NCBI GenBank assembly: GCA_007126035.1
Contig: SLCC01000076.1
Span: forward strand, 1-34,488
Length of the DNA stretch: 34,488 nt
Reading direction: 5' to 3'
Origin: Gemmatimonadota bacterium
GTDB taxonomy: Bacteria; Gemmatimonadota; Gemmatimonadetes; Longimicrobiales; RSA9
This document shows, one piece after another, positions 5,423 through 31,003 of this stretch. The position numbers and the translations under genes were made by a program. The first letter of the stretch is position 1, and each line of letters begins with the position of its first letter. The notes below the pieces were generated by a model, which saw only the letters and a program-made list of their open reading frames with translations, did not search any database and was not told the origin of the DNA.

Positions 5423-8400
5423 TCAGCCGCCGGTCACCGTGGCGGTGAGGGCCGTGCGGCCGTTGATGGGCACCCGGAAGCCGTCCGGGTGCGTGATGGA
5501 CACGGTGCTCGTGCCCGCGGTCAGCGGGTTGAACTGGGTGGCGCGGGAGCTGCCACCGGCGCCGGTGAAGACCAGCGGGCTGATGGTGATGCTGCCCACC
5601 GCCGGGTCACTGCTGGTGACCGGGACCTCTACGGTCATGCCCGGGCGCAGCTCCTGGGTGGTGGACAGGCTACCGTTCTCCTGAAGCCGGTATAGGCCCA
5701 CCGTGATGCCGGTGTTACTGGCGGTGGTCGTGGTGGTGAAGTCCGGGGTGGTGAGGTGGAACCCCGACGGCATCACCGTCACGGTGGACTGGCCGTCATT
5801 GAAGCCGGCGGCCCGGGCGGTGAGCGTGGTCATGGCGCCATCTTCCAGGCCCTGGACGTAGAGGGTCCGCGAGCTGGTGTTGCCGACGCCGGTGAAGGTG
5901 ACGCTGGTGCTGCCCACCTCGGTGCGGCTGGTGGAGATCAGCACCGCCGAGCCGTCGGCCACGGTCACCGTGATGTCCACCGGCTCCGGGGGCGTCTGGG
6001 TCAGGGAGACGCCGATGCTCGTCTGGAGATCCTTGCCCACCACCGCGCTGCCCATGGAGATGTTGGGCGCGGTCACCGTGGCTTCGAGCGCGGTGCGGCC
6101 GTTGACGGGCAGCCGGAATCCGTCCGGGTGCGTGATGGACACGGTGCTCGTGCCCAGGGTCAACGGGTTGAACTGGGTGGTGCGGGAGCTGCCACCGCCG
6201 CCGGTGAAGACCAGCGGGCTGGTGGTAATGCTGCCGACCGCCGGGTCACTGCTGGCCACCGGGATCTCGACGGTCATGCCCGGGCGCAGCTCCTGGGCGG
6301 TGGACAGGTGGCCGTTCTCCTGCAGCCGGTAGGCGCCCACCGTGATGTTGGTGTTGCTGGAGAAGGTCGTGGTGGTGAAGTTCGAGGTGGCGAGGTGGAA
6401 CCCCGACGGCATCACCGTCACGGTGGACTGGCCGTCATTGTAGCCCGCGGCCCGGGCCGTGAGCGTGGTCGTGGCGCCCTCTTCCAGCCCCTGGACGTAG
6501 AGGGTTCGCGAACTGGTGTTGCCGACGCCGGTGAAGGTGACGCTGGTGCTGCCCACCTCGGTGCGGCTGGTGGAGATCAGCGCCGCGCTGGGCGCCGTTA
6601 TGGTGATGGTGATGTCCACCGGCTCCGGCGGCGCCTGGGTCAGGGAGACGCCGATGCTGGTCTGGAGATCCGCGCCCACCACCACGGTGCCCATGGAGAT
6701 GTTGGGCGCGGTCACCGTGGCTTCCAGCGAGGTGCGGCCGTTGGCGGGCACCGGGAATCCTTCCGGATACGTGATGGACACGGTGCTCGTGCCCGCGGTC
6801 AGCGGGTTGAACTGGGTGGTGCGGGTGCTGCCGCCGCCGCCGGTGAAGACCAGCGGGCTGGTGGTGATGCTGCCGACCGCCGGGTCACTGCTGGCCACCG
6901 GGATCTCGACGGTCATGCCCGCGCGCAGCTCCTGGGTGGTGGACAGGTTGCCGTTCTCCTGCAGCCGGTAGGCGCCCACCGTGATGTTGCTGTTGCTGGA
7001 GAAGGTCGTGGTGGTGAAGCTCGAGGTGGTGAGATGGAACCCCGATGGCATCACCGTCACGGTGGACTGGCCGTCATTGAAGCCGGCAGCCCGGGCGGTG
7101 AGCGTGGTCGTGGCGCCCTCTTCCAGGCCCTGGACGTAGAGGGTCCGGGAGCTGGTGTTGCCGACGCCGGTGAAGGTGACGCTGGTGCTGCCCACCCCGG
7201 TCCGGCTGGCGGAGATCAGCGCCGCCGAGCCGTCGGCCACGGTCACCGTGACGTCCACCGGCTCCGGTGGCGTCTGGGTCAGGGAGACGCCGATGCTCGT
7301 CTGGAGATCCGCGCCCACCACCGCGTTGCCCATGGAGATGTTGGGCGCGGTCACCGTGGCTTCCAGCGAGGTGCGGCCGTTGGCGGGCACCCGGAAGCCT
7401 TCCGGGTGCGTGATGGACACGGTGCTGGTCCCGCCGCTATGGGGGTCGAACTGGGTGGTGCGGGTGCTGCTGCCGCCGCCGGTGAAGACCAGCGGGCTGG
7501 TGGTGATGCTGCCGACCGCCGGGTCACTGCTGGCCACCGGGACCTCGACGGTCACGCCCGGCCGCAGCTCCTGGGTGGTGGACAGGTTGCCGTTCTCCTG
7601 CAGCCGGTAGGAGCCCACCGTGATGTTGGTGTTGCTGGAGAAGGTCGTGGTGGTGACGCTCGAGGTGGTGAGGTGGAACCCCGACGGCATCACCGTCACG
7701 GTGGACTGGCCGTCATTGAAGCCGGCGGCCCGGGCCGTGAGTGTGGTCGTGGCGCCCTCTTCCAGGCCCTGGACGTAGACGGTCCGGGAGCTGGTGTTGA
7801 AGACGCCGGTGAAGGTGACGCTGGTGCTGCCCACCCCGGTCCGGCTGGCGGAGATCAGGGCCGCCGAGCCGTCGGCCACGGTCACCGTGATGTCCACCGG
7901 CTCCGGGGGCGTCTGGGTCAGGGACACGCCGATGCTCGTCTGGAGATCCGCGCCCACCACCGCGCTGCCCATGGAGATGTTGGGCGCGGTCACCGTGGCT
8001 TCCAGCGAGGTGCGGCCGTTGGCGGGCACCGGGAAGCCTTCCGGGTACGTGATGGACACGGTGCTGGTCCCGCCGCTATGGGGATTGAACTGGGTGGTGC
8101 GGGTGCTGCCACCGCCGGCGGTGAAGACCAGCGGGCTGGTGGTGATGCTGCCGACCGCCGGGTCACTGCTGGTCACCGGGATCTCGACGGTCAAGCCCGC
8201 GCGCAGCTCCTGGGTGGTGGACAGGTTGCCGTTCTCCTGCAGCCGGTAGGAGCCCACCGTGATGTTGGTGTTGCTGGAGAAGGTCGTGGTGGTGAAGTTC
8301 GAGGTGGTGAGGTGGAACCCCGACGGCATCACCGTCACCGTGGACTGGCCGTCGATGTAGTCCGCGGCCCGCGCCGTGAGCGTGGTCGTGGCGCCCTCTT

Positions 8401-11710: not shown

Positions 11711-11713
11711 GGC

Positions 11714-13360
11714 TCAGAAACTCCTGGCGAGGCCGACGGACATGGCGAACTCCCGGTAATCGAGATCGCCGAAGTAGGCGCTGCCCCGGAGGTTCAGGGC
11801 CAGCGCGCCCATGGGCCCGAGGTCGTAGCGGCCGTTGCCCGCGAGTTGGGCCATGCCCCCCATCACGCTCTCGCCCCCGCTAGCTGTCACGGAGAGGGCC
11901 AGCGGCGAACCGGGCGGCCTGTAGGAAGCGGAGGCGGCCCCGGTCAGCAGCTGCTCCGTCTGCTCTGGGTCACTGCTCCGGACGAGGCTGGGTTGGACCC
12001 CGATGGACATGGCTGGAGAGACGCTGTAGTCGTAGCCGACGCCCAGCGAGACGAACTGGGCGCCGAACGGGGCGAGCACCCCGGGCTTCGTCTCGGTTTC
12101 CTGCCAGCTCGCCTGAATGGAGAATCCGTGGGGCGATTCGCCGCCACGCGGCGTGTAGCGGGGCGCAAGGGTGACGGACCGAGCCACGTTCACGAGGGCG
12201 AAGGTGTCCACCGCCGCCCGGCGCTCGAGCTGGTTCAGCATCACGCTGCCCACCAGGCCCAGGGCCGGGCCGGCCTGGTAGCTGACGACGGTGTTCACCG
12301 TCATGCGATCCGTCTGTCCGGCCCCGTCGTCGACCAGGCCATCGCCGCGCCACCCCCCGCCGAGGCTGCCGGCGAGGCGCCCACCGAGGAGCGCGAGGGT
12401 GAGGGTGCCCTCCACGCTGCGCCAGTTGTTGGGCAGTGACGGGATCCCGAGCGAGGTGTAGCCCGGGCCGATCTCCTCCAGTCGCAGGCGTAGGCCGCCC
12501 CAGGGGAGCGGCGCCTCCGCGTCGACCCGATACGCCAGGTCCCCGTGGGTGCCCGGGCGGATGGGGTGGATCCGGTCCAGAACGCCGCCGGGCCATCCGA
12601 TCTCGGCCCGGGCACTGAAATCGGCGATGGGCTCCAGCCGGCGGTCGAGGGAGTGGATGCTGCCGTACACGGTGCCGCCCAGGCGCCAGCCGCGACGGGG
12701 CTCGAAGGCCATGGCCAGTCCCAGGACCAGGTTCTCGGCGGGCATGAGGCTCAGCGTGTCCGGCACCTCGTGCTGGTCGTGGCCCTGGAACGCCAGGATC
12801 TCGACGTGGTTCCGATCGCTGCCCAGGCGCGCCGAACCGGCGTATACGCGCCGGCTCAGGCTGAAGGGCACGCCCACGTCGAACCGGCGGTCATCGACGG
12901 TACCGAAGCCCAGCGGGTCGGTGAACACGGCGTCATCGGCGCGGCCCCTGTGGAACCGCAGCCGGACCGGCCCCGGAGACAGCTCCAGGCCGGCGCCGCG
13001 GACCGTGGTGCCCTGGAGCATCAGCTCCCCTATGGCGGGCGCATGGTCTCCGATGTACAGGGTGCCCCAGGACCAGGACGGGCTCAGGGCGTAGCGGTTC
13101 AGGGACCGGACGGTGTAGCTGCTCTCGGTGTCGTAGGTGAGGTTGAGGCCCAGGCTGATCCCCCAGAGGTCCAGTGAGGGAGACACGGTGAGCCGGCCCA
13201 TCATGGGCGGCCGCCGCGCCTCGCGGCCGTCGACGTAGTACAACTCCGTGTTCAGGGAGGCGCTCCCGCCGAAGGCCTGGCCGTTGGCGGCCTGCGGCGC
13301 GGCGAGTGCGACGACGGCGAGACATGCCACCCCGGCGGCGGCGCCGGTCCTCCGCATCAT
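11714..13360 (-). CDS. Outer-membrane beta-barrel protein
   Basis: A 548-residue exported protein. The signal peptide (MMRRTGAAAGVACLAVVALA, cleavage likely near ANGQA) is followed by strand after strand of alternating polar/hydrophobic residues with aromatic ends (LGLNLTYDTESSYTV, WRLGGTVYGSIHSLD, FVSLGVGYDYSVSPAM, LALNLRGSAYFGDLDYREFA). The last residue is Phe, in MSVGLARSF, matching the C-terminal signature that the BAM complex recognises. About 16 or more strands could be drawn, but I cannot count them reliably. The family is not recognised. The start ATG overlaps the FnIII gene's stop (ATGA), with GGAGG 5-6 nt upstream, a classical coupling arrangement. Its place between the FnIII gene and the giant lipoprotein suggests an anchor or export channel for surface proteins of the same operon; that role is inferred. 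Confidence 0.8.
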   Translation of the reverse strand: MMRRTGAAAGVACLAVVALAAPQAANGQAFGGSASLNTELYYVDGREARRPPMMGRLTVSPSLDLWGISLGLNLTYDTESSYTVRSLNRYALSPSWSWGTLYIGDHAPAIGELMLQGTTVRGAGLELSPGPVRLRFHRGRADDAVFTDPLGFGTVDDRRFDVGVPFSLSRRVYAGSARLGSDRNHVEILAFQGHDQHEVPDTLSLMPAENLVLGLAMAFEPRRGWRLGGTVYGSIHSLDRRLEPIADFSARAEIGWPGGVLDRIHPIRPGTHGDLAYRVDAEAPLPWGGLRLRLEEIGPGYTSLGIPSLPNNWRSVEGTLTLALLGGRLAGSLGGGWRGDGLVDDGAGQTDRMTVNTVVSYQAGPALGLVGSVMLNQLERRAAVDTFALVNVARSVTLAPRYTPRGGESPHGFSIQASWQETETKPGVLAPFGAQFVSLGVGYDYSVSPAMSIGVQPSLVRSSDPEQTEQLLTGAASASYRPPGSPLALSVTASGGESVMGGMAQLAGNGRYDLGPMGALALNLRGSAYFGDLDYREFAMSVGLARSF

Positions 13361-15402
13361 GTCCCTCCGTTCCGGCGTGGCGCGGCGGCCTGAATCGCCT
13401 CACCGGGCCGGCTCTCGCTGCCGCCGGCGTCCACGGCGATGATGCGGTACCACATCCCCGCGGCCCCGGCCGGGTCCGTCCATGCGGTCTCGGCCAGCAG
13501 GCCCGCGTGCGCCGGCTGGTACCGTCCCGCGACTGTGGTGGAGCGGAGCACGCGATAGCCTGCCACGTCTCCCGGCACGGGCTCCCAGGTGAGGGCGACC
13601 CCGGCGGGGCTGGCGGTTGCCCGGGCGTTGCGTGGCGCCCTGGGCGGATTGGCCGGAGCGATCGTCACGAGATCGCTGGCCGCAGCCGCCCCTTCGTTGC
13701 CCAGCGAGTCCACACTGGCCACCAGGTAGACCAGCCGCTCACCGGCCTTGACCTGCTCGTCACGGAAGAACCGGACGTGTGCCGGCAGCCGGCCCAGCCG
13801 TTCGAGCTCGCCGGCGCCGTCGGCCTGGCGGTAGATGGCGTAGAACGTCACATCGCCGTCCGGTGACCCGTTCCACTGGACCACGGCGCGGAACCCGCGA
13901 TCGTCCACGGCCCGGACCCGCTCCGGCGGCGCCGGCGGCCGCAGCTTCGGGATCTGGAGCGTCCGCTCCAGGGTCTCGCTCATGTTGCGTGCGCTGTCCA
14001 TCGCCGCGAGGCGGTAGACGTAGCGGACGCCCTGCTCGAAGCCGCGCTCGCCGGGCCCCGTGTCGACCCATTCCAGGTCCCGGGTGTCCCGGATGTTGAC
14101 CTGCGCCCAGGCGCCGCCATCCAGGCGGTCGCTCCGCCGTCGCATCAGCACGTAGGTCCTGAGGTCCGGCGCCGGCGTGGGGTCGGACCAGCGGAGCAGG
14201 ACGGCGTCCCGATCCGGCAGGTACTCCGGGACCAGACTGGCGGGCGGGCTCGGAGGGACCACGTCCACCACCAGTACCGTGGCCGTTGTGCTCGGCGCGC
14301 TTTCGTTGCCCGCCGACTCCAGCGCCGTGACCTGGTAGAAGAACCGGCCGCCGCCGGGAACCGAGTCGATCCAGACGGTGACGTCCGAATCGAGGGCTGC
14401 GGCGGTGACCCGGGCGAAGTCCGCCTCCTGCTGGGCCGCTCTGTAGATGTGGTAGCCCGCGATCCGGTCCGGCGCCTGGCCCGTCCAGACGATCTCGACA
14501 GTGCCGCGCAGGTCGGCCGCGCGCACGTCCCCCACCGGCCTCGGCCCGAAGCGGTCCGCCAGCTGGTAGCGCAGGTGGACCGGCTCGCTGGCCTGCCCGG
14601 TGTAGGCGACGGCGCTGAGGTGGAGATCCAGCACCTGGCCGGCCGCCGGGATGTCGTAGCGGTACACGTACTCGCCGATGTTGCCGGCCCGCAGGATCGG
14701 CTGCCGTGTCAGCGGTGGGCCATCAGCGCCGCCTTCGAGAATGCGGAACGCGGTAACGCCGTCGTCCTGGCCCCGGGCGAGCGTCGGGTAACGCCAGCGC
14801 AGCACCAGGTACTCCGCGCTGTGCTCCGCAGAGAAGTCGCTGGGCGGCGCCGGGACCAGGGGCGTCGCCACCGTCGAGCCTGCGATGGGCTCGCCGATGG
14901 GGACCTCGGCGCCGTCCACCAGGGTCACGCGGTAGCGGACGCTGGCACCGGCGGCGACCCCGGTGTCGATGTAGAGCCGGCCGAGCGCCAGCGCCACCTC
15001 CCGGTACCGGAAGGTGAGCAGATTGGCCGACAGCGGGTCGGAGCGTAACGCGTAGAACGTCGCCGTCGGGTCCTGCCGTTCCATGTCCTGCTGGATCTGC
15101 GGGTACAGCTCGTCCAGGAGCAGGACGAACTCGTCCGGTCCGCGGGCGGCGAGGACCGGCCGGTCCGTGAGCCGCTCCCAGCCCTGGCCCGCGTCCCGGT
15201 CCACCAGGATGCCGCCGCCCAGCGGGGTGATCCCGGTGTGATAGACGAAGACCGTGTCGGCCCGGACGCCGAGCCGCAGCTGCGGCGCTGGCGCCTGGGC
15301 GGCCAGCAGCGCGGGCCCCAGCAGGGCGAGCATCCCGGCTGCGAGACAGACTCGCCCGGCGGCCTTCCCTGATTTCGGTACCCATGAGATGGTCTTCATC
15401 AT
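13357..15402 (-). CDS. Secreted protein with five fibronectin type III domains
   Basis: A 681-residue exported protein. The signal peptide (hydrophobic 19-34, cleavage near LLAAQA) is followed by a unique N-terminal domain of about 140 residues (VFVYHTGITPLGGGILVDRD, FVLLLDELYPQIQQD, FYALRSDPLSANLL). Five FnIII domains follow at about 183-282, 288-378, 383-490, 493-590 and 593-675. They show the usual W (LVLRWRYP, VEIVWTGQ, VLLRWSDP, VVQWNGS, VALTWEPV), Y-x-(I/V)-x-R and a late Y-x-(V/L)-x-A-(V/L/M) strand (FFYQVTALESAGNES, YVYRLAAMDSARNMS). No enzymatic motif is visible, so it is probably a binding or scaffold component. Its ATG follows the giant gene's stop by 3 nt with AAGGGTGG upstream; its stop overlaps the barrel's start. 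The second operon gene, it probably works with the giant protein, which carries similar domains at its C-terminus. Confidence 0.85.
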   Translation of the reverse strand: MMKTISWVPKSGKAAGRVCLAAGMLALLGPALLAAQAPAPQLRLGVRADTVFVYHTGITPLGGGILVDRDAGQGWERLTDRPVLAARGPDEFVLLLDELYPQIQQDMERQDPTATFYALRSDPLSANLLTFRYREVALALGRLYIDTGVAAGASVRYRVTLVDGAEVPIGEPIAGSTVATPLVPAPPSDFSAEHSAEYLVLRWRYPTLARGQDDGVTAFRILEGGADGPPLTRQPILRAGNIGEYVYRYDIPAAGQVLDLHLSAVAYTGQASEPVHLRYQLADRFGPRPVGDVRAADLRGTVEIVWTGQAPDRIAGYHIYRAAQQEADFARVTAAALDSDVTVWIDSVPGGGRFFYQVTALESAGNESAPSTTATVLVVDVVPPSPPASLVPEYLPDRDAVLLRWSDPTPAPDLRTYVLMRRRSDRLDGGAWAQVNIRDTRDLEWVDTGPGERGFEQGVRYVYRLAAMDSARNMSETLERTLQIPKLRPPAPPERVRAVDDRGFRAVVQWNGSPDGDVTFYAIYRQADGAGELERLGRLPAHVRFFRDEQVKAGERLVYLVASVDSLGNEGAAAASDLVTIAPANPPRAPRNARATASPAGVALTWEPVPGDVAGYRVLRSTTVAGRYQPAHAGLLAETAWTDPAGAAGMWYRIIAVDAGGSESRPGEAIQAAAPRRNGGT

Positions 15403-15405
15403 GAC

Positions 15406-18400: not shown

Positions 18401-21400
18401 CCCCGGCCGCCGCTCCAGTCGCCGTTCATGAGCGCGACCCAGAACGCGATCTCGCCGCTATAGACCACCGGCACGTCGAGGAACGCGCTGCCGGCGAAGT
18501 AGAGCAGCCAGTCCGGCGGGTCGCGGAGCACCGCGCCCTGGAACTGCACGCCGGCCAGCTCGTAGCCGAGGACGGAGACGTTGGCGTTCATCTCCGCGTA
18601 GCCGCCGACGCTCCGCCGCGGCTGGTACCACCAGACGTTGGTCAGGAACGAAACGTGGCTGTTCAGGATCAGCAGATTCAGGTCCCGCGCCACCTGGACC
18701 TGCGCCAGCAGGCCGTCGTTGCCGACCCACATGTCGGCCGTGATGTCCGGACCAGCCAGCCCCAGCATCTGCACGTTGGCGGCGGCGGTTACCGACCACT
18801 GGGTGCCGTTGGTGCCGGCGTTGACGAGGAAGTCCGCATTGCCACTACCGCTCAGCGGCACGCCGAAGTCCAGCCCCATGTCCAGCCCACCGGCGATCTT
18901 GATGGCCGGCAGGTCGGCCCAGTCGACGTAGAAGTAGCCACCGCCGGCCAGCCGGAATCGACCGTCCCGGCCGTCCATCCCGAGAAGGACGGCCTCCGCG
19001 TCCAGGTGCGCGTATGCGTCAGTGACGGTGACCAGCGTACGGCCGCTGACGGTGTACTCGTTGGGCCCGACCTGGATCACGCCGAGGCCGCCGAGGAGGA
19101 ACCCGGCGAACAGCAGGTCGTCTCGCCAGTAACCCTCGCGCTGGTAGTTCGCCGCGCCCAACACGCCGCGATAGTCCGCGTACTCCGGGCGCCAGAAGAA
19201 GCCGCCGCCCACGTCCGTCAGCACGAGGACGCCCGGGGCCGGCAGCAGCGGGATCGGAACGCTGGCGGCGACGAACAGGCCGAACGTCAGCTCGCCGTCC
19301 CGGCGGCCGAACGTGCCGGCGGCGCCGAAGCCGTTGTCGCCGTAGTGCACTCGTCCCGACGCCCGGATCAGGTTGTCGGCCCCCGCGCCGGCGGCGGCCT
19401 CGTAGCGCAGGCTCAGGTGGCCGCCGATGTCGCCGGGCAGCGAGAGGGTTGCGCTGTCCACCAGCAGACTGACGCCGTCGGGCCCCCGGAAGAACCGCAG
19501 CTCCCTGACGCCGCCGGCGATGCCGCCCTCCATGGTGAGGCAGGCCGCCATGCCGCCGCACCCGCTCATGCCACTCCCCATGGCGACCGGCGCGAAGTGG
19601 AGGTACTCGGTGACCGTCACCTCGCGGGTCGGCGTGCCGTTCTCGTAGTTGGCCGCGCTCTCCCGGTTGGACGCCACGTCCGTGACGGTCAGGGTGACCG
19701 GCTCGCCCCGGTAGTAGCTGAAGTCCCCGACCGCCAGGCTGATGGTCTCCATGACCGAGAGATGGCCGCCCTGGATCTCGCCCCAGTCCGTGATGCCGTT
19801 GCGGCCGATGACCAGGTTCCGCACCACGATGCCGCCATCGACGAAGTCCAGGTTCAGCCGGGCGTCACCGCCGACCACCAGGTGCCAGTCCGGATCGTTG
19901 GACACGCGGAGCTCGCTGAGCCCGATCTCCAGGAAGCCGCGGCCGAAGCGGAAGCTCTCGTCGAACTCGGCGTTCCACTCCACGGTGAAGTCACGGAAGT
20001 CGAGGGGCTGGCCGGGACCCGGGTCGTTGAAGGCGAACGCGATGCCCGGCGTCAGGCCGTTCTGTCCGTTCCGGCCGAAGCGGATCATGCGTTCGGCCTG
20101 GTCCCGCTCGCCCTCGTACAGCTCGGCCACGGCGTAGACTCTGGACGTCGCCGGGCGGCGGGGGTTCAGCTCGATGCCGGCGGCGCGCAGGTCCAGGGTG
20201 AAGTCGCCAATGCTGGTCCGGCTCGACGGGGCCTCGAAATCGAAGTGTACCGACGCGTCGTGGTCCCACTGGCCGGCCGCATCGCGAGAGACCGCCAGGG
20301 TGACGGTGCCCGTCGCGTCGAGGGGCTCCGGCATCTTCGCCTGTCCCGTGGCCAGCATGCCCATGGCGTCTGGCGCGAAGGAGAGGGTCAGCTCGGTCAG
20401 CCGCAGGTACTCGCCGAAGACATCCACCGGGTTCGGGCCCAACAGGTTGACCCCGGCGGACGCCAGGGCGAACGTGCCGTCGCTGCCGAGCACCAGCCCG
20501 CTCACGCTGACGGTCCGGCCGAGGAACTCGCCGCTTCCATCCAGCCCCAGGGTCAGGCGCGGCGTGGCGCCGGCGGGCGCCTCGATGCCGGCGGTCAGGC
20601 TGGTGAGCGTCAGGGGCAGGTAGCCGCCGAAGAGCTGGAGCTCCTGCGTGTCCTCGGCCCGGGCGGCGAGCCGGAAGCCGCGGGTCCCGAAGGTCAGCTC
20701 CTGGACGGCGATGGCGAACTCGTCGCCCAGCAGCGCGTCCAGGTGGAGCAGCCCGCCGAGCTGGACCTCGAAGTAGTCCCGCCCCAGCGCGGCGTCCCAA
20801 CCGGTCCGGGCCGCCAGCCCCGTTTCGCCCGGCTGGCCGTTCAGGCCCAGCGGCTCGAACTCGGCCACGCCCAGCGGGATCCGCCCCTGGTTCGGCAGGT
20901 GGCTCGCGTCCAGCGCGAAGCTCCAGCCGGCGGGCGCGTAGGTGGCGCTGAGCCCCACCGCCGCCGGGCCGCCGCCGGTCTCGCCCAGCACGCTGCTGGC
21001 CAGACCGCCGACGAAGCAGATCGTCGGCGGTTGCGTCGCCTGGAAGCCCACCTCCACCGCGTGGACGGCCAGCGAAAGCGCGCCATCGCCGAAGCTGCGC
21101 TGCACGATGGCCTCCCCGCCCGGAGAGTACGGCGCGCCGCAGCTGCCCATGGCGAAGTGGCCGGCCACGAAGCCACCGGGGCCGAAGGTCAACCCTCTCG
21201 CCACCAGGTCCGGCAGGTCCAGCCCGGGCACCGTCAGGCGCGCGTCGGCAACGAGCTCGAAGTCGGAACCGTTGCTCTGGAACGCGAAGCGCGTGACGGC
21301 CAGCGGCACGCCGGGCACCGTCAGCGGCGCCTCGGCCAGGTCGGCCACGAAGGAGCCGGCCACGGGAATCCACGCATCGTCGAGCGTCAGCGAGCCGCTC

Positions 21401-24400
21401 ACCGGGACCGTGGGGTGGCTGCCGTCGGCGTTGGTCAACGCCGTCAGCACGAGCGGCAGGCCCGTCGCCGGCGTCTGGATGACCGTCTGGCCGTTCTCCC
21501 GCTCGAACTCGACGAGGAACGACGCCGTAACCGGGTCGCGCAGCACCAGGTACCCCACGTCCATGCTCGGCACGGCCAGGGTATCCGGCAGCGACGCCAT
21601 GAGCAGCGCTGTCATCGCCGGCGACAGGCCGAACCCGCCGGTGTCGTACCAGCCCACGTGTGTGGTCTGCTCGGGCTGGACCAGGTACAGGTCGGCGCGC
21701 CCGGCGGTCAGCCGAACCGGGTCCGGATCCAGCGTGAAGCCGGCGAACTCGAGATCGAGCGCCGCGAAGCTCTCACCGCCGAAGTTCAGCGCCGCGCTGC
21801 TGGTCCCGTCGACGACCATGCCCTGGCCGCCCAGCGTGACCTGCGCCGGAACCACCAGCCGCAGCGCCGTCTCGGCTTCGAACGGCGAGGCCGGGTCCCG
21901 CACCGACCACCGGCTCCGGGCGCCATTGCCGTTGCCGTTGCCGTCCCCGTTCGCCTCCCGCTGCGCCAGGTCCAGCTCCAGCGCGAATGCGCTCTGGATC
22001 TGGACCCAGCCCGCGACCGGCTCCAGGCCCGGCAGGTCGAACCGGTAGTCGTGGAACGTCACGGCCACCTGGCCCTCGCCCACCGCCATGCTGCCGCCGC
22101 CGCTGAAGCGGATGCCGCTGGTGTCCAGCACGGCCTGGTTCACCGTCAGATGGAACAGCGGCTCCTCCGCCCGGAACGGGATGGGCCAGTTGAACGGCTC
22201 CGCGATGGCGATGCTCCCGCCCACCAGCCGGCCGCGGACCAGGTCGAGCACGATGTCCCCGGCAACCTGCACCGCGTCGAGCCCCTCCGCCGGCGGCGGC
22301 AGCGTGAGCGTGGCGCCAGCGGCGAGGGTCACCTCCTGGACGCCCTGGTCGAAGGCGAACTGGAGGCTGCCCAGCTGGGGCGTGAGGGCCAGCGGCCCGA
22401 GGGCGATGGCGCCCAGCGCCGCGAAGTCGGTGATGGTGCCCTGGATCCCGCCGGCGGTCGCCAGGCGCAGGTTCGCGGTGCCCAGCGAGCGCAGCTCGCC
22501 GGCCTCTTCGCCGAAGGACTCGGGCATGACCAGCGAGCCGGATACGTGCAGGTCCACGCCCTGGCGCGGCCCGTCCGGCCCGGCGTCCGCCACCAGCCCG
22601 CCGCCGATCTCATGGATGTAGACGGCCAGGGATCCGCCCAGGGGCAGCCGCGCGCCGTCGTCCGGGAAGGTGTACGGCAGGACCTGGCCGGTGAGGAGCC
22701 GGTGCTGCCTGTCGAATGCCACGTTCTGGAGCGTGATGGACGCGTCGGCCAGCCGCGGCGATTCGAACGACGGCAGCTTGAGCTCGAAGTCGAAGGTCGG
22801 GAACGTGTCGGAGACCTGGACCCCCGCCCACTCGCCGGCCCACCCGATGGTGAGGGCGGGGAACCGCGCCTCGAGGAGCCGCAGCGAGGCTCCGGCCAGC
22901 TGTATGGCCGTCCCGTTGAGCGCGGGCCGCGAGCTGGAGTTGAGCGTCTGCGGCGGGATGTGGAAGCCCTCGGGCCGGACCTCCACGCCCAGCAGCGCGA
23001 ACTCGAGGGGGTCCGCGCCCGCCGGCCGCACCCTCATGACTACGTCCAGCTCGGCGTGGAAGTCGAAGCCCGTCTGCGGGTGGTGGCCGAAGCTCAGCGC
23101 CCCGATGCTCTCGATGCACAGCGCGACGGCGCCGAAGTCCACCATGCCGCAGTCGGCCTCCATGGCCGCCGCCGTGAAGTTCGTGACCTGGAAGCCGCTG
23201 GCGCTGCCGTACGTCGCCTCCAGCGACGCCGACGCCGCGAGCCCGCTGCCATTACCCACTTCGAAGCGCCCGGCGACGCCGATGAAGACGTCCGGCTGAC
23301 CGATGGCGGTGCCCAGCGGCACGTCGATGCTGCCGGTCAGCGCATCCAGCCAGACGCGCACCGGCCCCGCCAGGTCGATGGCGTGGCCGATCTCGTCGAG
23401 CTGGACCGAACCCTGGAGCCGCTCGGTGCCGTCGATGTGGAGCCGCACCCTGCCACCGCCGCCCAGCGGGCTGTCCAGCAGGACCAGCGGCCCTTCCAGG
23501 AAGATGCCTTCCTGCTCGCTCGCCAGGTCCGAGCGGCGGGTGTAGCGCAGCGTGTCCAGCGCCAGCGGAATGCCCAGCTGCCGCAGGTCCAGGGCCTCCG
23601 GCAGGCCGACCAGGATCTCGCCGGCCCGGACCGAGTAGGTCTGGGGATGGACCTCGAAGCCACTGAAGGCGACGCCGATCGCGGGCGGCGCCGCATCGCC
23701 CGGCCGCTGCAGCGCCGGCAGCACCAGCTGCACCGTCTGGCCCGGCCGGGTCGAGAGGACCAGCCCGCCATCGTTCCAGTCCAGGTCCAGCAGCAGGTCA
23801 CCGTTGCCGTCGCGCAGCGTCAGGTAGGCGATGGCCTCGGTGGGCAGCGGCAGCCGGGCCGGCAGGACGTGGCTGGCGAAGAAGGCCAGCTCCGGGTGGA
23901 ACCCCCGATGGTCCATCCTCGCCACCACGTCGCCGTGCCAGAGCAGGTCCGCCCGGCCGGTCCGGACCGCGAAGGGCGAGAAGCCCAGGCGGAAATCATC
24001 GGTGAAATCCACCCCCAGCCCGTCCAGTCGCTGCTCGCCGTACGCGATGCTGGCCGCCGCGCCGGCCGTGGTCCGCAGCCCGTTGGAATCGACGCTCACC
24101 TGGCCTGACAGCTCGATGAGGGCGCCCGGCGCCGCCTCCAACGACGTGCCCAGGGGAACGGCCTGGAACCGGAGCAGCTGGTCCTGCGTGATGCCTGCCT
24201 CGAACGCGAAGGCACCATCGAAAGCCACGCTGCCGTCCACCACCTGGAGCGTGGCCAGGTCCAGGAGGAACTCGTCGAACGAGGCCCCGATGCTGACGGC
24301 GCCCAGCAGCAGCTCGTGCCGCCCGTCGATCCGCAGGCCGGCTTCCGTGAGGTGCGCGCCGCCGAACCGGAAGCTCAGCGCCGGGTCCTCGAAGGGGATG

Positions 24401-27400
24401 CCGAAGCCGAAGGGTCCGTGCAGCGTCAGGTCGAGCGTCTCCACGGCACCGGCCACCAGGTCGAGGACCAGCGAGCCTGTGGCGGCGATGGTGTCCGCCA
24501 CCACGTCCAGCGCCATTCCCGCCTGGGCCCCGAGCCGCACCGTCTGCTCGCCGTCCACCGCGGCGAACTCCAGCCAGGCATCGCTGAAGCCCGCCTGCAC
24601 CGGTCCGAGCCGGAGCGGACAGGGCGGCGCCAGGTTCTCGATCCGCCCGGTGATCAGACCGCCCGAGCCGAGCAGGAGCGTCGTCTCCCCCAGCACGAGG
24701 CGCTCGGCGTCCCCGCAGACGAAGGGGTCGCCCAGCTCCACGTCGCTCCGGAGGGCTACGCCGCCGTCCGCGGCCCAGCCGCCGTCCGTGTAGGACGCGC
24801 TCAGCCAGCCGCCCAGCTCCCGGAGGTGGAGCGTGGCGCCGGCGGCCAGGGACACCGGGCAGCCGGGCTCCTGGATCAGGGAGATGGGGAGCGCCGCGCT
24901 CAGCTCGCCGCTGGCGAAGGTGGCGTCGGTGACCTGGAAGGTGGCGTCCCGCAGGCACGAAGGCGCGCTCTCCGGCAGCCCCGGAAGCGAGAGGTCGAAA
25001 TCCAGGGCGAAGCTCCACGGCCCGGCGTCGCCACTCCAGTCGAACCACGGGAAGGTGAAGCCATCCATGCGGAACCCGTGGACCCGGAGCCCGAACCCGG
25101 CCAGGTCCGCATCGGGTCCGTCGGCCAGAAGGGACGGCAGGTCCGAGGGCCCGAGGGCGAGCGCCGGGAAGTGGAACCCGGCCCGGTCCAGGGCGATGCC
25201 GTGGATGCGCGGCAGCTCGTAGCCGCCCAGGTGCGGGAAGAGAAGGTCCGCGTCCAGCGTCAGGCGGAAGTCCCAGCCGGAGACCGGGTCCCGCTCGAAC
25301 CGCTCCAGCGCCAGGTTCCGGGGGGCGAGGCGGGCGAACCCCAGGTCCAGACGCGGCTCGGGGATGGAGCAGGAGAAGTCCGAGTCGATCAGCGTCAGGC
25401 CGTCTCCGTCCGAGGCGGCCAGGAGGATGGCGGCGCCGCAGCGGTGTTCCGTCGTGAGCGCCAGCTCGACGTCGCCCGCCAGCTCCAGGTTCCAGGAGGG
25501 CGCGGCGCCGTTCCACGGCACCTGGATCGAGCCCGTCAGGGACCGGGCCGAGAGGGACATCCGGTCCGAGCCGCCCACCAGGGGCACGCGGTGGTCGAAG
25601 GTGCAGGCGACCGCCGCCGTCGCGGCATCCCGCATGAGGTCCAGCTCCTCGACCTCGCAGGGGAGCGGGTCTCCCAGGAAGCGGACGCCGCCGGCCGCCG
25701 TCACGGTGTACTGGGGGAAGCGGGCCGCGACGCGGGTCAGCTCCAGCCGCACCGGGTCCCCCGGCTGGCCCAGGGCGAGGAGCGTCTGGCCCTGGGGCGC
25801 CTCGGCGAGGAGCTCGCCCTGGAGTCCTTCGGCGGTGAGGGCCAGTGTGCCGCTGGCCAGGACGCCCTGCCCTGCCCAGCCCAGCTCCAACGTAAGCTCC
25901 GGCTGGCCGACGGACGTATCCGTCCGGTCGCCGCCCCAGTTCACCTCCACCTCGGGCAGCGTCAGCCCCACCAGCCGCAGGGTGGCCGGGCCCAGCTCCA
26001 GTGAGGGCGCCGGCTGGCCCGGCCCGCCCAGCGTGAGCCCGGTTGCGGGGAGGCGGAACCCCGAGTCCCGGAGCCGGGCGTCGTCCAGCGCCAGCTCGAG
26101 CCACCGGCCCGGGCCGACGCGGAACCCCAGCGTCATGTCGATGCCCAGCTCGAACCGGAGGCGGCCCGCCGGATCGACGCTGGCGTCCATGTCCCGGATC
26201 CGGTGGACGCACGCCGACAGGTACTGGAAGGAGAAGTCGGCGCAGTCGGCGTCGGGGCCCGTGGCCTCGGCGTCGAAGGACGTGACCGTCGCTCCCGCCT
26301 CCGTGAGCCGCAGCCCCACCTCCGCACCGAGGCTCGATCCGCGTGGCGCCGCGACGCTCAGGCCCAATCCCGCGTCGAGGGTGTAGCTCCCGCCGGCCAG
26401 CGAGCCGAGGGGCAGGTCGAAGCGGCCGGCGAGGGAGCGAAGGTGGAGCGCCACCTGCTCGATGGGCGAGACGTCGTGGTCCAGCCCGTCCAGCGCGACG
26501 TCACCCCGGAGCCAGTCGTCCGCCCCGATCCGGAGCGAGACCCGCGCGCCGTCCACCACCTCATCGAGGAACGTGAGGCGGCCTTCCAGATCCAGCCCGC
26601 CCGCGTCCGGGTTGCCGCTGGCGGACGTCCAGGCCAGCCGCTCCAGGACCAGGGGCACGCCCATGGGGCGGAGGTCCAGCGGCGCCTCCAGCTCGGCAGC
26701 GACGGCGCCCGCCGTGACCTCGAAGGTGAACGGGCTCACCCGCACGTCCCGGAGGCTGACGCCCACGGTGGGCGCCCGGGGCTGGGTCCCCTGGAGCGCG
26801 GGGAGGACCAGGTCCAGCGTCTGGCCGATGGGCGTGTCCAGTCGCACGCCGCCGCCCTCCGCCTCGGTGGCCACCACCAACAGCTCACCCTGGTCGTCCC
26901 GGAGCCGCAGGAACGCCGTCTGGAGGGTAGGCAGCGGGACCGCGTCCGGGATGAACCCGGTGAACAGCGTGCCGAAGTACGCCATGTCGGGGTGGATCCC
27001 CGCCGCGTCGATCCGCGCGACGCGCTGGGCCTGGTGCAGCAGGTCGGCCCACCCGGCCTCGACGCCGAAGGGCGAGAGGCCCAGGGCGAAGTCGTTGGAG
27101 AACTCGGCGGACAGGTCGTCCAGCGCGGTGCCGGCGTAGGCGATGCGGGCGCCCGCCGAGCCGCTCGCGGCTAACCCGTCGGCGCCCAGGACCACGTCCC
27201 CCAGGAAGGTGATCATGACGCCCGTCTCGACGTCCAGCGGGCTCCCGGGCGGATGGACGCTGAACCGGAGTCCGTGGCCCGGGGCCAGCGCGGCCTGAAG
27301 GCCGAGGCCGCCGAGGATCTCGGCGCTCCCGCTCACCACCGACGCGTCTTCCAGCCCCACGACCAGCCGCCGGAACCGGACGGCCGCGGTGGCCGGGCCC

Positions 27401-30198
27401 AGAATCAGCTCATGGTTCCCGTCCAGCACGAGCCCGTCGGGGCTCAGGTCCGCGGCACCGAGGCGGAACCGGAAGACCGGGTCGTGAGCGGGAAGCCCCA
27501 CATCCACCGGGCCGACGAGCCGGCCGCTGAGCGCAAGGAGCCGGCGCTCGAGGAGGTCGTAGCCCATCAGTCCGGTCACGGTGAAGGACGCGCCATCGGC
27601 GCCGTTCGATCCGGCCTCGCCCGCGGCCAGGACGGGCCCCAGGTCGATCGTCGCGGTCATCGCCCCGCCCACCGACGCCGTGGCCACGCCCGCCTCCCGA
27701 CCGAACCGGAGCCAGCCGTCGGTGAGGGACGCCGTGATCGGGCCCCAGACGAAGGCGCACGGCGGCGCCAGCCCGCTGATCTCGCCCTCGAGCCAGTTGT
27801 CGGGGTGGAGGGCGAGGGCCGCGCTGCCGAGGGGCGGGGTGGCGATGTCGGCGCCCAGCGGGCAGACGAAAGGCTCGCCCAAGGCCACGTCGCCCGCCAC
27901 GCCCAGGGCGCCGGAGAACTCGACGCCGCCGGCGCTCCAGCCCCCCGCCAACGTCCCATCCAGGGCGGTCAGCCGGAAGGTCGCCCCGCCGCCCAGGGGG
28001 AGGTCGCACGGCTCGGCCAGGGTCCGGGGGGCCAGGCTCCCGCTGAACCGGCCGCCACTGAACCTGGCGCCCTCGACCCGGAGCCCGGCCGCGCCCAGAC
28101 AGCGGGCGGTGGCCATGGGCAGCCGGGGGAGCCCCAGCTCCAGGTCCAGCTCGAAGTCCCAGCCGCCGTGACCGACGCCGTCCCACTCGAGCCAGGGGAA
28201 GGTGAACGGTGCGACACGGACGCCGAACGGACGGATGTCGAACCCGCCCACCGACAGCGCGCCCACGCCGGAGGCCGCCAGCTCCGCCTCGGTCCACGCC
28301 AGCCCCGGGATGGCAATGCCGCGGGGGCCGAGCTCGATGCCCCGAACCAGCGGGAGCGGCCCGACCCCGAGCCCGGGGAACGCCAGCTCCGCGTCGAGCT
28401 GGACCCGGAAGTCCCAGCCGGCCGCGGTGTGCCCCAGGGCGTCCAGCCGCACGTCACGGAGCGTGGCCCGGGCCACGCCCAGGTCCATGACCGGGTCGGC
28501 CAGGTCACAGGCCAGGCGGGCCGAATGGACCTGGACGGGGGCGCCGTGGGCGAGCGACAGCGTCAACGGCAGGCCGCACTCGACGCCGGCGCCGCCCGCC
28601 AGCTCCAGCTCGAGGCCGCCGCGGAGCGTGAGGTCGTAGCCCAGGGACGCCGCCCCCCAGTCGAGGGCGATCTGGCCCGAGAGGAGATCGAGGCGGAGCC
28701 CGAGGCGCGAGGAGCCGGCGGCAAGGGCGAGGGCAGGGGCGCCCGGCTCCGGCTCGCACCGGACAGCGATCCAACCGGTGGTGGCGCGGAGGTCCAGGTC
28801 GTCGACGGTGCACGGCATCGGGTCCCCCGCCAGCGTGAGGCGGCCGGCGGCGGTGACGTCCCCGTCCGGGAACGTCGCGGCCACGCCCGTGACCCTGAGC
28901 GTCACGGGGCCGGTCCCGAGCTCCAGGAGGGGCCGGTCGGGGGTACCGGTGGCCTCGAGGGTGCCCGCGAGCCCGGACGGGCCGAGGCCGAGCTCGCCCC
29001 GGGCCAGGACGGTGCCGCCGGCTGGGCGGAGAGACGCCGAAGCCTGGAGCCCGTGGCGGTGGGACCACCGGAGCCCCGTCAGCGTGACGACGTTCCGCAG
29101 CGCCTCCGGGACCAGCCCGTCCACCGAGCCCAGCGCCGCCACCTCGCCGCCGGTCACCCTCAGCATGCCGTCCAGGGAGACCTCCAGGTTCCTCGCCTGG
29201 GCACCCACCTGCACCGGGCCGTCCGGCAGCGAGAGGTGGAGCAGCACCGGGCCGTCCACCACGACGCCCGTCGCCGATGGCCTGACCGTGGCCGTATGCA
29301 GCCCGGCCACCACGGCGAAGCCCGGCACCAGCGGGATCTCCGACAGGCTCGCGTCGGGGCCCTGCTGCGGCAGGAACGCGAAGGTCCGGATCTCGCTCCG
29401 CCCGGAATTGGCGCCCAGCGGCCGGCCCTGCTCGTCCAGCGCCTGCACCTGCCAGACGTAGACCTGCCCGGGGCTCAGCGGCAGCGCACCGAGCGGGTAC
29501 AGGTACTGTGACCGCCCACGCAGCACCGTCTCGTGGTGTGGCGGCGTCAGCAGCGCCTCGGCAGGCGTCTGCCCCCGACGCAGCTCCGCGAGCCGCACGT
29601 AGTAGCTCTGTTGCGAAGGGCCGCGCAGCGAGAGGCCCGGCGCCCACGAGAAGGTCACCCGGCCATCCGTGACCAGGGCCCCGTCCGCCGGCATGAGCAG
29701 CACCGGCGGCGGCGCGGCGTCCACGATGAACCGGGCGCAGCGGGCCTCCGATACGGCCCGGTCCTCCACGTAGATGGCGGCGCACAGCTCGTAGCGGTCC
29801 TGCGGGATCGCGCCGCCTCGTACCGCCAGGTCCGCCCACTCCTGGGGCACATCGGTCCGGCCGGGGTCCACCAGCTCCGCGGAAGTGTTCGTCAGCACGC
29901 GTACGCCGGCGCCGCTGAAGTACATGGGGTGGCTGACCGCCCGGGCCTCCCGGCCCCGGGAAGCGCGAAGCCGCGTCCGGACCTCGAACGCGGACAGGCC
30001 CGGACCGCTCCGCGTGACGATGATCTGGAGCAGGCCCGGTTGGGTGTTGAGCTGGTGAACGTAGGCCGGCAGCTCCGGAGCCACGATCAGCTGCAGGTCC
30101 CACACGTCCTGCGCCCGCGCCGGCGACGCGCTGGCCAGCAGGCACGCCGTCACGAACAGGGCTCGTGCTCCAGTCCGTACCACCGCGTACACGCTCAT
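15406..30198 (-). CDS. Giant secreted protein (4930 aa), TANFOR-like N-terminus with three repeated supermodules
   Basis: The start ATG at 30198 gives a clean signal peptide (MSVYAVVRTGARALFVTACL, cleavage at ASPARAQ); the frame is open to 30357, but the extra 53 residues look non-coding. No strong RBS is seen. Residues 30-160 resemble the TANFOR domain of giant Bacteroidota surface proteins, as I remember it: PAYVHQLNTQPGLLQI, FSGAGVRVLTNTSAELVDPG, IPQDRYELCAAIYVEDRAVS, then PPPVLLMPADG. An FnIII/Ig-like domain (163-275) follows. Residues about 296-3030 are three homologous supermodules. Then comes a beta-rich part (about 3030-3935; GVLVLTDVGGGFFWRPEY), a helical region (about 3935-4405; RLEAMIAEAQGQSQRMVDAM) and FnIII-like domains (4410-4930) with paired sites such as WVRARTENGAGLKSG. 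No T9SS-type C-terminal domain or catalytic site is evident. It is the first operon gene, probably a surface structural protein. Confidence 0.85.
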   Translation of the reverse strand: MSVYAVVRTGARALFVTACLLASASPARAQDVWDLQLIVAPELPAYVHQLNTQPGLLQIIVTRSGPGLSAFEVRTRLRASRGREARAVSHPMYFSGAGVRVLTNTSAELVDPGRTDVPQEWADLAVRGGAIPQDRYELCAAIYVEDRAVSEARCARFIVDAAPPPVLLMPADGALVTDGRVTFSWAPGLSLRGPSQQSYYVRLAELRRGQTPAEALLTPPHHETVLRGRSQYLYPLGALPLSPGQVYVWQVQALDEQGRPLGANSGRSEIRTFAFLPQQGPDASLSEIPLVPGFAVVAGLHTATVRPSATGVVVDGPVLLHLSLPDGPVQVGAQARNLEVSLDGMLRVTGGEVAALGSVDGLVPEALRNVVTLTGLRWSHRHGLQASASLRPAGGTVLARGELGLGPSGLAGTLEATGTPDRPLLELGTGPVTLRVTGVAATFPDGDVTAAGRLTLAGDPMPCTVDDLDLRATTGWIAVRCEPEPGAPALALAAGSSRLGLRLDLLSGQIALDWGAASLGYDLTLRGGLELELAGGAGVECGLPLTLSLAHGAPVQVHSARLACDLADPVMDLGVARATLRDVRLDALGHTAAGWDFRVQLDAELAFPGLGVGPLPLVRGIELGPRGIAIPGLAWTEAELAASGVGALSVGGFDIRPFGVRVAPFTFPWLEWDGVGHGGWDFELDLELGLPRLPMATARCLGAAGLRVEGARFSGGRFSGSLAPRTLAEPCDLPLGGGATFRLTALDGTLAGGWSAGGVEFSGALGVAGDVALGEPFVCPLGADIATPPLGSAALALHPDNWLEGEISGLAPPCAFVWGPITASLTDGWLRFGREAGVATASVGGAMTATIDLGPVLAAGEAGSNGADGASFTVTGLMGYDLLERRLLALSGRLVGPVDVGLPAHDPVFRFRLGAADLSPDGLVLDGNHELILGPATAAVRFRRLVVGLEDASVVSGSAEILGGLGLQAALAPGHGLRFSVHPPGSPLDVETGVMITFLGDVVLGADGLAASGSAGARIAYAGTALDDLSAEFSNDFALGLSPFGVEAGWADLLHQAQRVARIDAAGIHPDMAYFGTLFTGFIPDAVPLPTLQTAFLRLRDDQGELLVVATEAEGGGVRLDTPIGQTLDLVLPALQGTQPRAPTVGVSLRDVRVSPFTFEVTAGAVAAELEAPLDLRPMGVPLVLERLAWTSASGNPDAGGLDLEGRLTFLDEVVDGARVSLRIGADDWLRGDVALDGLDHDVSPIEQVALHLRSLAGRFDLPLGSLAGGSYTLDAGLGLSVAAPRGSSLGAEVGLRLTEAGATVTSFDAEATGPDADCADFSFQYLSACVHRIRDMDASVDPAGRLRFELGIDMTLGFRVGPGRWLELALDDARLRDSGFRLPATGLTLGGPGQPAPSLELGPATLRLVGLTLPEVEVNWGGDRTDTSVGQPELTLELGWAGQGVLASGTLALTAEGLQGELLAEAPQGQTLLALGQPGDPVRLELTRVAARFPQYTVTAAGGVRFLGDPLPCEVEELDLMRDAATAAVACTFDHRVPLVGGSDRMSLSARSLTGSIQVPWNGAAPSWNLELAGDVELALTTEHRCGAAILLAASDGDGLTLIDSDFSCSIPEPRLDLGFARLAPRNLALERFERDPVSGWDFRLTLDADLLFPHLGGYELPRIHGIALDRAGFHFPALALGPSDLPSLLADGPDADLAGFGLRVHGFRMDGFTFPWFDWSGDAGPWSFALDFDLSLPGLPESAPSCLRDATFQVTDATFASGELSAALPISLIQEPGCPVSLAAGATLHLRELGGWLSASYTDGGWAADGGVALRSDVELGDPFVCGDAERLVLGETTLLLGSGGLITGRIENLAPPCPLRLGPVQAGFSDAWLEFAAVDGEQTVRLGAQAGMALDVVADTIAATGSLVLDLVAGAVETLDLTLHGPFGFGIPFEDPALSFRFGGAHLTEAGLRIDGRHELLLGAVSIGASFDEFLLDLATLQVVDGSVAFDGAFAFEAGITQDQLLRFQAVPLGTSLEAAPGALIELSGQVSVDSNGLRTTAGAAASIAYGEQRLDGLGVDFTDDFRLGFSPFAVRTGRADLLWHGDVVARMDHRGFHPELAFFASHVLPARLPLPTEAIAYLTLRDGNGDLLLDLDWNDGGLVLSTRPGQTVQLVLPALQRPGDAAPPAIGVAFSGFEVHPQTYSVRAGEILVGLPEALDLRQLGIPLALDTLRYTRRSDLASEQEGIFLEGPLVLLDSPLGGGGRVRLHIDGTERLQGSVQLDEIGHAIDLAGPVRVWLDALTGSIDVPLGTAIGQPDVFIGVAGRFEVGNGSGLAASASLEATYGSASGFQVTNFTAAAMEADCGMVDFGAVALCIESIGALSFGHHPQTGFDFHAELDVVMRVRPAGADPLEFALLGVEVRPEGFHIPPQTLNSSSRPALNGTAIQLAGASLRLLEARFPALTIGWAGEWAGVQVSDTFPTFDFELKLPSFESPRLADASITLQNVAFDRQHRLLTGQVLPYTFPDDGARLPLGGSLAVYIHEIGGGLVADAGPDGPRQGVDLHVSGSLVMPESFGEEAGELRSLGTANLRLATAGGIQGTITDFAALGAIALGPLALTPQLGSLQFAFDQGVQEVTLAAGATLTLPPPAEGLDAVQVAGDIVLDLVRGRLVGGSIAIAEPFNWPIPFRAEEPLFHLTVNQAVLDTSGIRFSGGGSMAVGEGQVAVTFHDYRFDLPGLEPVAGWVQIQSAFALELDLAQREANGDGNGNGNGARSRWSVRDPASPFEAETALRLVVPAQVTLGGQGMVVDGTSSAALNFGGESFAALDLEFAGFTLDPDPVRLTAGRADLYLVQPEQTTHVGWYDTGGFGLSPAMTALLMASLPDTLAVPSMDVGYLVLRDPVTASFLVEFERENGQTVIQTPATGLPLVLTALTNADGSHPTVPVSGSLTLDDAWIPVAGSFVADLAEAPLTVPGVPLAVTRFAFQSNGSDFELVADARLTVPGLDLPDLVARGLTFGPGGFVAGHFAMGSCGAPYSPGGEAIVQRSFGDGALSLAVHAVEVGFQATQPPTICFVGGLASSVLGETGGGPAAVGLSATYAPAGWSFALDASHLPNQGRIPLGVAEFEPLGLNGQPGETGLAARTGWDAALGRDYFEVQLGGLLHLDALLGDEFAIAVQELTFGTRGFRLAARAEDTQELQLFGGYLPLTLTSLTAGIEAPAGATPRLTLGLDGSGEFLGRTVSVSGLVLGSDGTFALASAGVNLLGPNPVDVFGEYLRLTELTLSFAPDAMGMLATGQAKMPEPLDATGTVTLAVSRDAAGQWDHDASVHFDFEAPSSRTSIGDFTLDLRAAGIELNPRRPATSRVYAVAELYEGERDQAERMIRFGRNGQNGLTPGIAFAFNDPGPGQPLDFRDFTVEWNAEFDESFRFGRGFLEIGLSELRVSNDPDWHLVVGGDARLNLDFVDGGIVVRNLVIGRNGITDWGEIQGGHLSVMETISLAVGDFSYYRGEPVTLTVTDVASNRESAANYENGTPTREVTVTEYLHFAPVAMGSGMSGCGGMAACLTMEGGIAGGVRELRFFRGPDGVSLLVDSATLSLPGDIGGHLSLRYEAAAGAGADNLIRASGRVHYGDNGFGAAGTFGRRDGELTFGLFVAASVPIPLLPAPGVLVLTDVGGGFFWRPEYADYRGVLGAANYQREGYWRDDLLFAGFLLGGLGVIQVGPNEYTVSGRTLVTVTDAYAHLDAEAVLLGMDGRDGRFRLAGGGYFYVDWADLPAIKIAGGLDMGLDFGVPLSGSGNADFLVNAGTNGTQWSVTAAANVQMLGLAGPDITADMWVGNDGLLAQVQVARDLNLLILNSHVSFLTNVWWYQPRRSVGGYAEMNANVSVLGYELAGVQFQGAVLRDPPDWLLYFAGSAFLDVPVVYSGEIAFWVALMNGDWSGGRGGNPRLEAMIAEAQGQSQRMVDAMVGTTPTQYGLTADQLAGAGAWLYSHPLAHREHFATHLEQTEERVTSPVNQTFKSVLDQDVIGTARSPAPVHGTQVATSLSTLAHTTTGLNDWITGAYTHLDLALATAAAPGRVQNPLTIQPPVMQDGELVTGPAFTAGQEAEAQLGSVREANKRRDGEYRRALARVTENLVILDAMLANRTYFEGTSTTVFGGSGDLQDWQVSTTPITSQYQVSLDLGLPEPDRTILRVSTDFRRALEATTAYNARRIGFHWDDAVWAGIRQHTFSAAAVEDANFHWARRTMPDTTRARVHGLRVFWAHTFAGAGSTQANSAGNQAREDMLSLLHSAQTATLSSQRTALLNSAYALFEQSGLQVWRDLHVHGLPAFADTAQTRAARLRTEAESAQSALLDEYRAFTTALHGVYSRKADLTSILYAMIDEYVLWRDSWDDSGDWAAARPGYTASLQDLARQLEPPRLTEIRVHPARTGSRNENLVSWTAHHPIGITENALQILPATTTSTSIDLARSVISVGAATEFVQHEARRSATAEDFRVWVRARGPAGVSATRGASYTLGLGGLSGGTSAGTNVAVADVTQPSVPQIAVEYARTIDPETGAQTYWVVDATRIPLTLSSTDHDSDIAAYEVALGTTSGGTQVRPWTVMQGRRPLAGDEPHRANNRLETSLHSLALQDGRRYWVRARTENGAGLKSGIRSVVVRVDLTPPNVPGSASQLTFGQPSGSSLHATIGRATSEPVWSSTRVATRDRVEPRVRARWRSSSDETSGVKHYEYVVSRNAEAGQAGFTQGFVATTDTTITITGAPLSYTDSIAFVLVRARDNAGQVSEPRVIRRVVRDITRPTTPLGQLYFPDTGGARFYITRLSTDPESGLLGYQWAIGTQPNRDDLRSWSNAADLPTSALTSCLSGSTISSPIGPSNCEVPPYFTIPGEELPSWTSFEGDYYVTVRAVNHAGILSHGVASGPVTVSSPVIQTTIQLQGW
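21100..29310 (-). repeat. Three supermodules within the giant protein
   Basis: Landmarks recur in order along the protein. FTFPW-(L/F)-(E/D)-W is at about residues 665 and 1713. C(T/E)V-(D/E)-(D/E)-LDL occurs in modules one and two. GWDFR-(V/L)-x-LDA occurs in both. (G/R)(R/W)ADL followed by LPALQ or LVLTAL is at about residues 1051, 2083 and 2833. DC-x(5)-F-x(3)-(S/A)-(A/L)-C(V/I) closes modules one and two. Spacing is about 1030-1050 residues between the first two and 750 between the second and third, which lacks the first part of the unit. The copies are strongly diverged. Edges are approximate. Confidence 0.65.
21922..21951 (-). repeat. Hexanucleotide microsatellite coding (Asn-Gly)n
   Basis: Five imperfect GCCGTT units encode GDGNGNGNGAR inside module three of the giant protein. 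Changes of whole units keep the frame, so this could vary linker length but not switch the gene off. Confidence 0.6.
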
Positions 30199-30965: not shown

Positions 30966-31003
30966 GCGCCAACCCGGAGAACCCGAACCACCCGCGCCCG
31001 ACG

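Follow-up and report, generated by a model that had tools for sequence, protein, structure and literature searches.

The four-gene block on the minus strand of the window (the whole stretch of DNA analysed here, an entire contig, 34,488 bases long, of a Gemmatimonadota MAG of 3.88 Mb) appears from sequence comparison to be a single copy of a widespread bacterial module that has gone undescribed, composed of a TANFOR protein, a fibronectin type III (FnIII) protein and an outer-membrane barrel. The original prediction had treated these genes as a system, and a check of the neighbors of their homologues across phyla proved strongly positive; the genes belong together. With modest confidence, the barrel is proposed to be a dedicated outer-membrane partner of ~550 aa that exports or anchors the TANFOR proteins, and the block is read as the Gemmatimonadota version of a conserved cell-envelope module.

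Gene structure and predicted products

The four genes encode products of 4930, 681, 548 and 2095 aa (sum 8254) and follow one another at junctions of +3, -4 (ATGA) and +3, an arrangement that agrees with the original prediction, with the ORF coordinates and with the sequence as read. The further observations that none of the products is enzymatic and that each carries an export signal also held, with signal peptides on genes 1-3 and a lipobox on gene 4, all called by eye from the sequence rather than by a dedicated predictor. The GC content at codon position 3 (0.90-0.93, compared to 0.52-0.57 at position 2) identifies all four ORFs as real genes, and the long plus-strand ORFs opposite them were rejected as high-GC artefacts.

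Gene 1 (15406..30198, minus strand) encodes the giant TANFOR protein of 4930 aa. An alternative in-frame GTG at 30357 would yield 4983 aa, and because this longer ORF overlaps the divergent sigma-factor ORF (start 30351), the ATG at 30198 is the preferred start. The product is laid out as a signal peptide, a TANFOR and Ig/FnIII-like pair, a beta-rich region, a helical region and FnIII-like domains at a C-terminus that is conserved across phyla. Residues 65-330 of the 4983-aa ORF comprise the signal peptide and, at 29368..30108 (minus strand) based on alignments A5/A7, AlphaFold2 and PF25788 (E 1.2e-7), the TANFOR region followed by the Ig-like domain. A search of the window giant alone against the TANFOR model TIGR02542 gave no match. 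Six of the 14 members of alignment A2 match this model (best E 4.6e-6; none shown above the curated cut-off of 67 bits) and Bacteroidota TANFOR-type proteins align with the window giant across the whole TANFOR region, in agreement with the earlier description of the gene as TANFOR-like. AlphaFold2 models the TANFOR region and the Ig-like domain as two beta-sandwiches (pLDDT 88.6), and a fold search of this model against the PDB returned only generic tandem FnIII folds (TM about 0.3).

Beyond PF25788, gene 1 matches nothing credible in Pfam and NCBIfam, where no credible family covers the body of the giant, and a profile of the giant core had no credible match in the PDB. About 750 residues of the body align with Bacteroidota-phylum giants at 29-37% identity, and the giant of locus L078 matches residues 1534-4895 of the window giant, across phyla and over most of its length, at E 1.6e-282. 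A core module of ~350 aa occurs in three copies in the beta-rich region of the window giant, in about two in members of ~4000 aa and in six in a member of 6807 aa, such that the count (2, 3, 6) rises with the length of the protein. Judging by these alignments, giants of roughly 4000-6800 aa constitute one conserved, undescribed family whose members differ in module number.

Gene 2 (13357..15402, minus strand; 681 aa) encodes an exported FnIII-repeat protein recognized by PF00041 (fn3; E 6.2e-9, above the curated cut-off) and by its homologues, and its conserved N-terminal part is common to the Bacteroidota and Zixibacteria relatives. Gene 3 (11714..13360, minus strand; 548 aa, ending ...ARSF) was assigned from its sequence and homologues. 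A signal peptide, strands throughout and a C-terminal aromatic beta-signal mark its product as a predicted outer-membrane beta-barrel, and the earlier designation as a barrel-type outer-membrane protein is borne out by the family, which shares the signal peptide, an all-beta pattern and, in most members, a C-terminal Phe (8/12 members of alignment A6 and 12/18 Bacteroidota-phylum members). An AlphaFold2 model built from four sequences has the same all-beta pattern at low confidence (pLDDT 44) and was left out of the fold search. The barrel family has no credible match in Pfam or NCBIfam, and would therefore be invisible to domain-enrichment scans; a profile search against the PDB likewise found no credible match and no solved relative. 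Because neither a POTRA nor another known export domain was found in the barrel, the argument for a role in translocation is entirely a genetic one.

Gene 4 (5423..11710, minus strand; 2095 aa) encodes an Ig-like repeat lipoprotein with the lipobox IIVAC at residues 27-31 (by inspection), in which repeats of ~104 aa are followed by about five of ~213 aa. The latter repeats (about 639 bp each) are near-alike, fall within 5423-8665 of the window and are probably prone to changes in copy number or to misassembly. Clear homologues at the same position are confined to three genomes (G190, G228 and G241), while other relatives have different Ig-repeat proteins or none; the lipoprotein is an accessory that varies between genomes.

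The operon promoter likely lies in the 152-bp divergent intergenic region at 30199..30350, as inferred from its position. Two candidate regulators follow on the plus strand, an ECF sigma factor (PF07638; 30351..30965) and a Ser/Thr protein kinase with a TPR domain (30962..33418, the stretch as scanned). Blocks often adjoin signalling genes: the sigma factor and kinase pair also adjoins the block in G046 (L005) and at L090, LuxR-type response regulators adjoin those in G003 (L062), L064 and L060, and a TPR-containing protein does so in G228. Elsewhere in the window, a 787-aa KamA-type radical SAM protein (313-2676, minus strand; TIGR00238 E 3e-43, under the cut-off) is far longer than its matching aminomutase models (331-417 positions).

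Recurrence of the block and the TANFOR-barrel pairing

Genes 1-3 recur as a core, and to this extent the proposed four-gene unit stands; gene 4 falls outside of it, being replaced elsewhere by other Ig-repeat lipoproteins or missing. The system is unnamed, as had been stated, and the part of that claim that placed it outside of the Bacteroidota did not hold, as the giant, the FnIII protein and the barrel are also encoded together in genomes of the Bacteroidota phylum. In the Gemmatimonadota G046, G190, G228, G241 and G289, and in part in others, the genes run giant, FnIII, (small gene), barrel and large Ig-repeat protein; the variant in G003 and G011 departs from this in its short TANFOR protein and in the identity of its second gene. 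An extra exported gene of ~240 aa is found between the FnIII and barrel genes in several relatives and is absent from the window. The order is TANFOR, extra gene, FnIII, barrel in the Zixibacteria (L066), TANFOR, FnIII, barrel at the Bacteroidota-phylum locus L091, and barrel, TANFOR, FnIII in many Bacteroidota-phylum genomes. Searches of plasmids by tblastn found nothing when the barrel or the FnIII protein of the window was the query, and with the TANFOR region all five matched records were from Bacteroidota. On a Bergeyella porcorum plasmid (L059, 13599-24210), three TANFOR-type genes occur in a row near a deaminase-domain gene and look like a toxin array.

Genome contigs were scanned for the TANFOR region with a three-member alignment. 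Among 395 Gemmatimonadota genomes, 15 have a strong TANFOR match (E below 1e-10) and 13 a strong barrel, with 13/13 barrel genomes also TANFOR genomes (p 1.4e-22), and among 296 Bacteroidota-phylum genomes (E<=1e-25) there are 69 with TANFOR, 83 with the barrel and 68 with both (p 7e-51), counts that are lower bounds because a limited number of candidates was scored per genome and p-values that overstate certainty because related genomes are not independent. In the two Gemmatimonadota TANFOR genomes without a barrel (G244 and G261), the TANFOR ORF runs off the contig end. Conversely, 15 Bacteroidota-phylum genomes have the barrel at E<=1e-25 and no equally strong TANFOR match, several of them with weaker ones. 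The barrel occurs within 25 kb in 93/113 Bacteroidota-phylum TANFOR places, always on the same strand and mostly directly adjacent, and the gene order across TANFOR-barrel places is barrel-first in 61 and TANFOR-first in 28. The FnIII gene lies within 22 kb in 71/97 TANFOR places, all on the same strand, and is specific to the module, with 69/74 strong FnIII matches adjoining a TANFOR gene.

The TANFOR region and the barrel are fused in a single ORF at four Bacteroidota-phylum loci (L084-L087) and in one Gemmatimonadota genome (G246; L055). As the Bacteroidota-phylum fusions form one fully supported clade in the tree and G246 is placed elsewhere, the fusion likely arose in at least two events. 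Taken together, co-occurrence, close neighborhood on one strand and fusion suggest that the TANFOR region and the barrel work as a unit at the outer membrane, and a role of the barrel in exporting or anchoring the giant would fit both the pairing and the fusions. At L061, a barrel gene precedes a TANFOR protein with a WHH nuclease end (PF14414), which is followed by an SMI1/KNR4 gene; that the same barrel family adjoins a toxin-ended protein suggests that it serves exported TANFOR proteins in general. In the same tree, Gemmatimonadota barrels occur in several places, suggesting transfer between phyla or old paralogues, and the window barrel sits on a long branch whose placement is uncertain.

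Known systems and alternative explanations

TANFOR proteins have one documented role, that of polymorphic toxins, described by Jana, Salomon and Bosis in 2020 for the Bacteroidetes (TIGR02542) with export through the T9SS as a hypothesis (PMC7073777). The window giant resembles these proteins in its N-terminal signal peptide and TANFOR region, its size and multidomain exported nature, and the Fn3 proteins enriched nearby. It differs in lacking a toxin domain and an immunity gene, in its occurrence in the Gemmatimonadota and in its pairing with a barrel, on which the text of PMC7073777, the only prior account of TANFOR proteins found, is silent. None of the results speaks specifically for the adhesive, motility-related or predatory role suggested in the original prediction. 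In outline, the block also resembles two-partner secretion (T5bSS; TpsA/TpsB, CdiA/CdiB), where the gene for a large exported protein bearing an N-terminal domain lies next to that for a cognate outer-membrane barrel and some partners have C-terminal toxins. Unlike two-partner secretion, the TANFOR region is a beta-sandwich, an extra FnIII gene is present, and neither the barrel nor gene 1 matched a POTRA, the TpsB barrel family or the TPS domain in Pfam or NCBIfam. Intimin/invasin-type adhesins (T5eSS) also combine an outer-membrane barrel with Ig-like modules; in the block, however, these are separate proteins, the fusions place the TANFOR pair before the barrel with no passenger after it, and no family match was found.

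The relationship with the T9SS (SprA/GldKLMN and CTD substrates) required closer comparison. A 2016 survey found the T9SS only in Bacteroidetes (PMC4793230). Its host range overlaps with that of the block, and SprB and CTD genes occur near Bacteroidota TANFOR loci; in contrast, the block also occurs where GldM is missing, CTD proteins are all but absent and SprA is often lacking. GldM is absent from all 15 block-bearing Gemmatimonadota genomes (0/15) and the CTD, the T9SS sorting domain, gave one marginal match in each of only 2/15. SprA-like proteins (TIGR04189) are present in 280/395 Gemmatimonadota genomes compared to 8/15 block genomes (p 0.15), such that SprA travelling with the block is unsupported. 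The window's own genome has a SprA-like protein and no GldM, and, judged by these two components, no complete T9SS core was recognized in it. With GldM missing, almost no CTD and no SprA enrichment in block-bearing Gemmatimonadota, the module does not appear to depend on a complete T9SS, a statement based on GldM, CTD and SprA; in Bacteroidota, the T9SS may have a role. SprA could help in some block genomes, given its presence in 8/15.

Several T9SS-related observations were made in the same datasets. A SprA-like protein is located at G000:C139:6951-10715, and such proteins are widespread in Gemmatimonadota though block-bearing genomes are without GldM. An Ignavibacteria genome (G402, L064) has 60 CTD matches and a Zixibacteria genome (G404, L066) has 66, both with SprA and no match to the GldM model, and these may possess a T9SS with a divergent motor. 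The record CP034120.1 (L070), titled Glaciecola amylolytica, has a TANFOR locus, a full-length SprA and two GldM copies; this content is typical of Bacteroidota and the record name may be wrong.

These comparisons bear on the published hypothesis that TANFOR proteins are T9SS substrates (PMC7073777), for which the barrel would be only a downstream surface-attachment or shuttle partner. More than 95% of Bacteroidota TANFOR genomes have a T9SS and SprB and Por_Secre_tail genes are enriched nearby (PMC7073777), gliding or T9SS-tail proteins occur near L058 and L060, and the SprA-like proteins of the 8/15 block genomes include that of the window's genome. Against this, the block-bearing Gemmatimonadota combine the absence of GldM and two marginal CTD matches with 7/15 genomes lacking SprA, and the CTD model TIGR04183 matched none of the four window proteins, the giant included, and nothing in the whole of their own genome, making this explanation unlikely for the block. 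The giant may instead remain periplasmic, a structural or transport bridge that is fixed to the barrel at the outer membrane and not displayed outside, in line with its great length, modularity, apparently amphipathic beta strands and Sec signal. A search for AsmA/TamB or other bridge families gave no match, and the AsmA/TamB-like candidate was rejected; toxin-ended TANFOR relatives with immunity genes (L061) are most readily explained if proteins of this class are exported from the cell, and a periplasmic location is accordingly considered quite doubtful.

That the giant is itself a polymorphic toxin, as its TANFOR domain and membership in the published class (PMC7073777) could imply, is highly improbable: no toxin domain was matched in Pfam or NCBIfam, its C-terminus is conserved across phyla, and the gene after the giant encodes the FnIII protein and no immunity-type protein. 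Finally, the co-occurrence of TANFOR and barrel could reflect co-inheritance of neighbors without functional contact, as the genes of the module travel together and, based on the tree, apparently between lineages. The survival of the pairing through different gene orders (61 vs 28), different phyla and fusions in two lineages makes coincidental co-inheritance the most improbable of the explanations.

Proposed working of the module and its significance

If the barrel is a dedicated partner of the TANFOR proteins, all proteins of the module would be exported by Sec, with the Bam machinery inserting the barrel into the outer membrane. The TANFOR beta-sandwich pair, with which the mature giant begins, would then dock on or in the barrel, which would carry or hold the giant at the outer membrane while its long body of beta-rich modules is displayed on the outside. 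The FnIII protein may assist or extend the structure, as may the lipoprotein in some lineages, and at other loci the same barrel family would serve TANFOR proteins with toxin C-termini. Gene structure, families, pairing, fusions and the presence of the block in genomes lacking GldM are established from the sequences; from this genomic pattern we infer physical contact between TANFOR and barrel and surface exposure, and the barrel may be an export channel, an anchor or both. A broader proposal, put forward tentatively and given less credence than the partnership itself, is that the barrel is the outer-membrane component of an unrecognized, T9SS-free pathway for secretion or surface display in the Bacteroidota-Gemmatimonadota group, handling both giant structural proteins and antibacterial toxins.

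The analysis extends TANFOR-type proteins to the Gemmatimonadota and Zixibacteria. For the exit of TANFOR toxins from the cell, for which the T9SS has been proposed, the barrel provides a specific, knock-out-ready candidate. Nearly all TANFOR genes have a barrel gene next to them, and in two lineages the two are fused; the barrel is thus a testable candidate for how these proteins may reach, or stay on, the cell surface.
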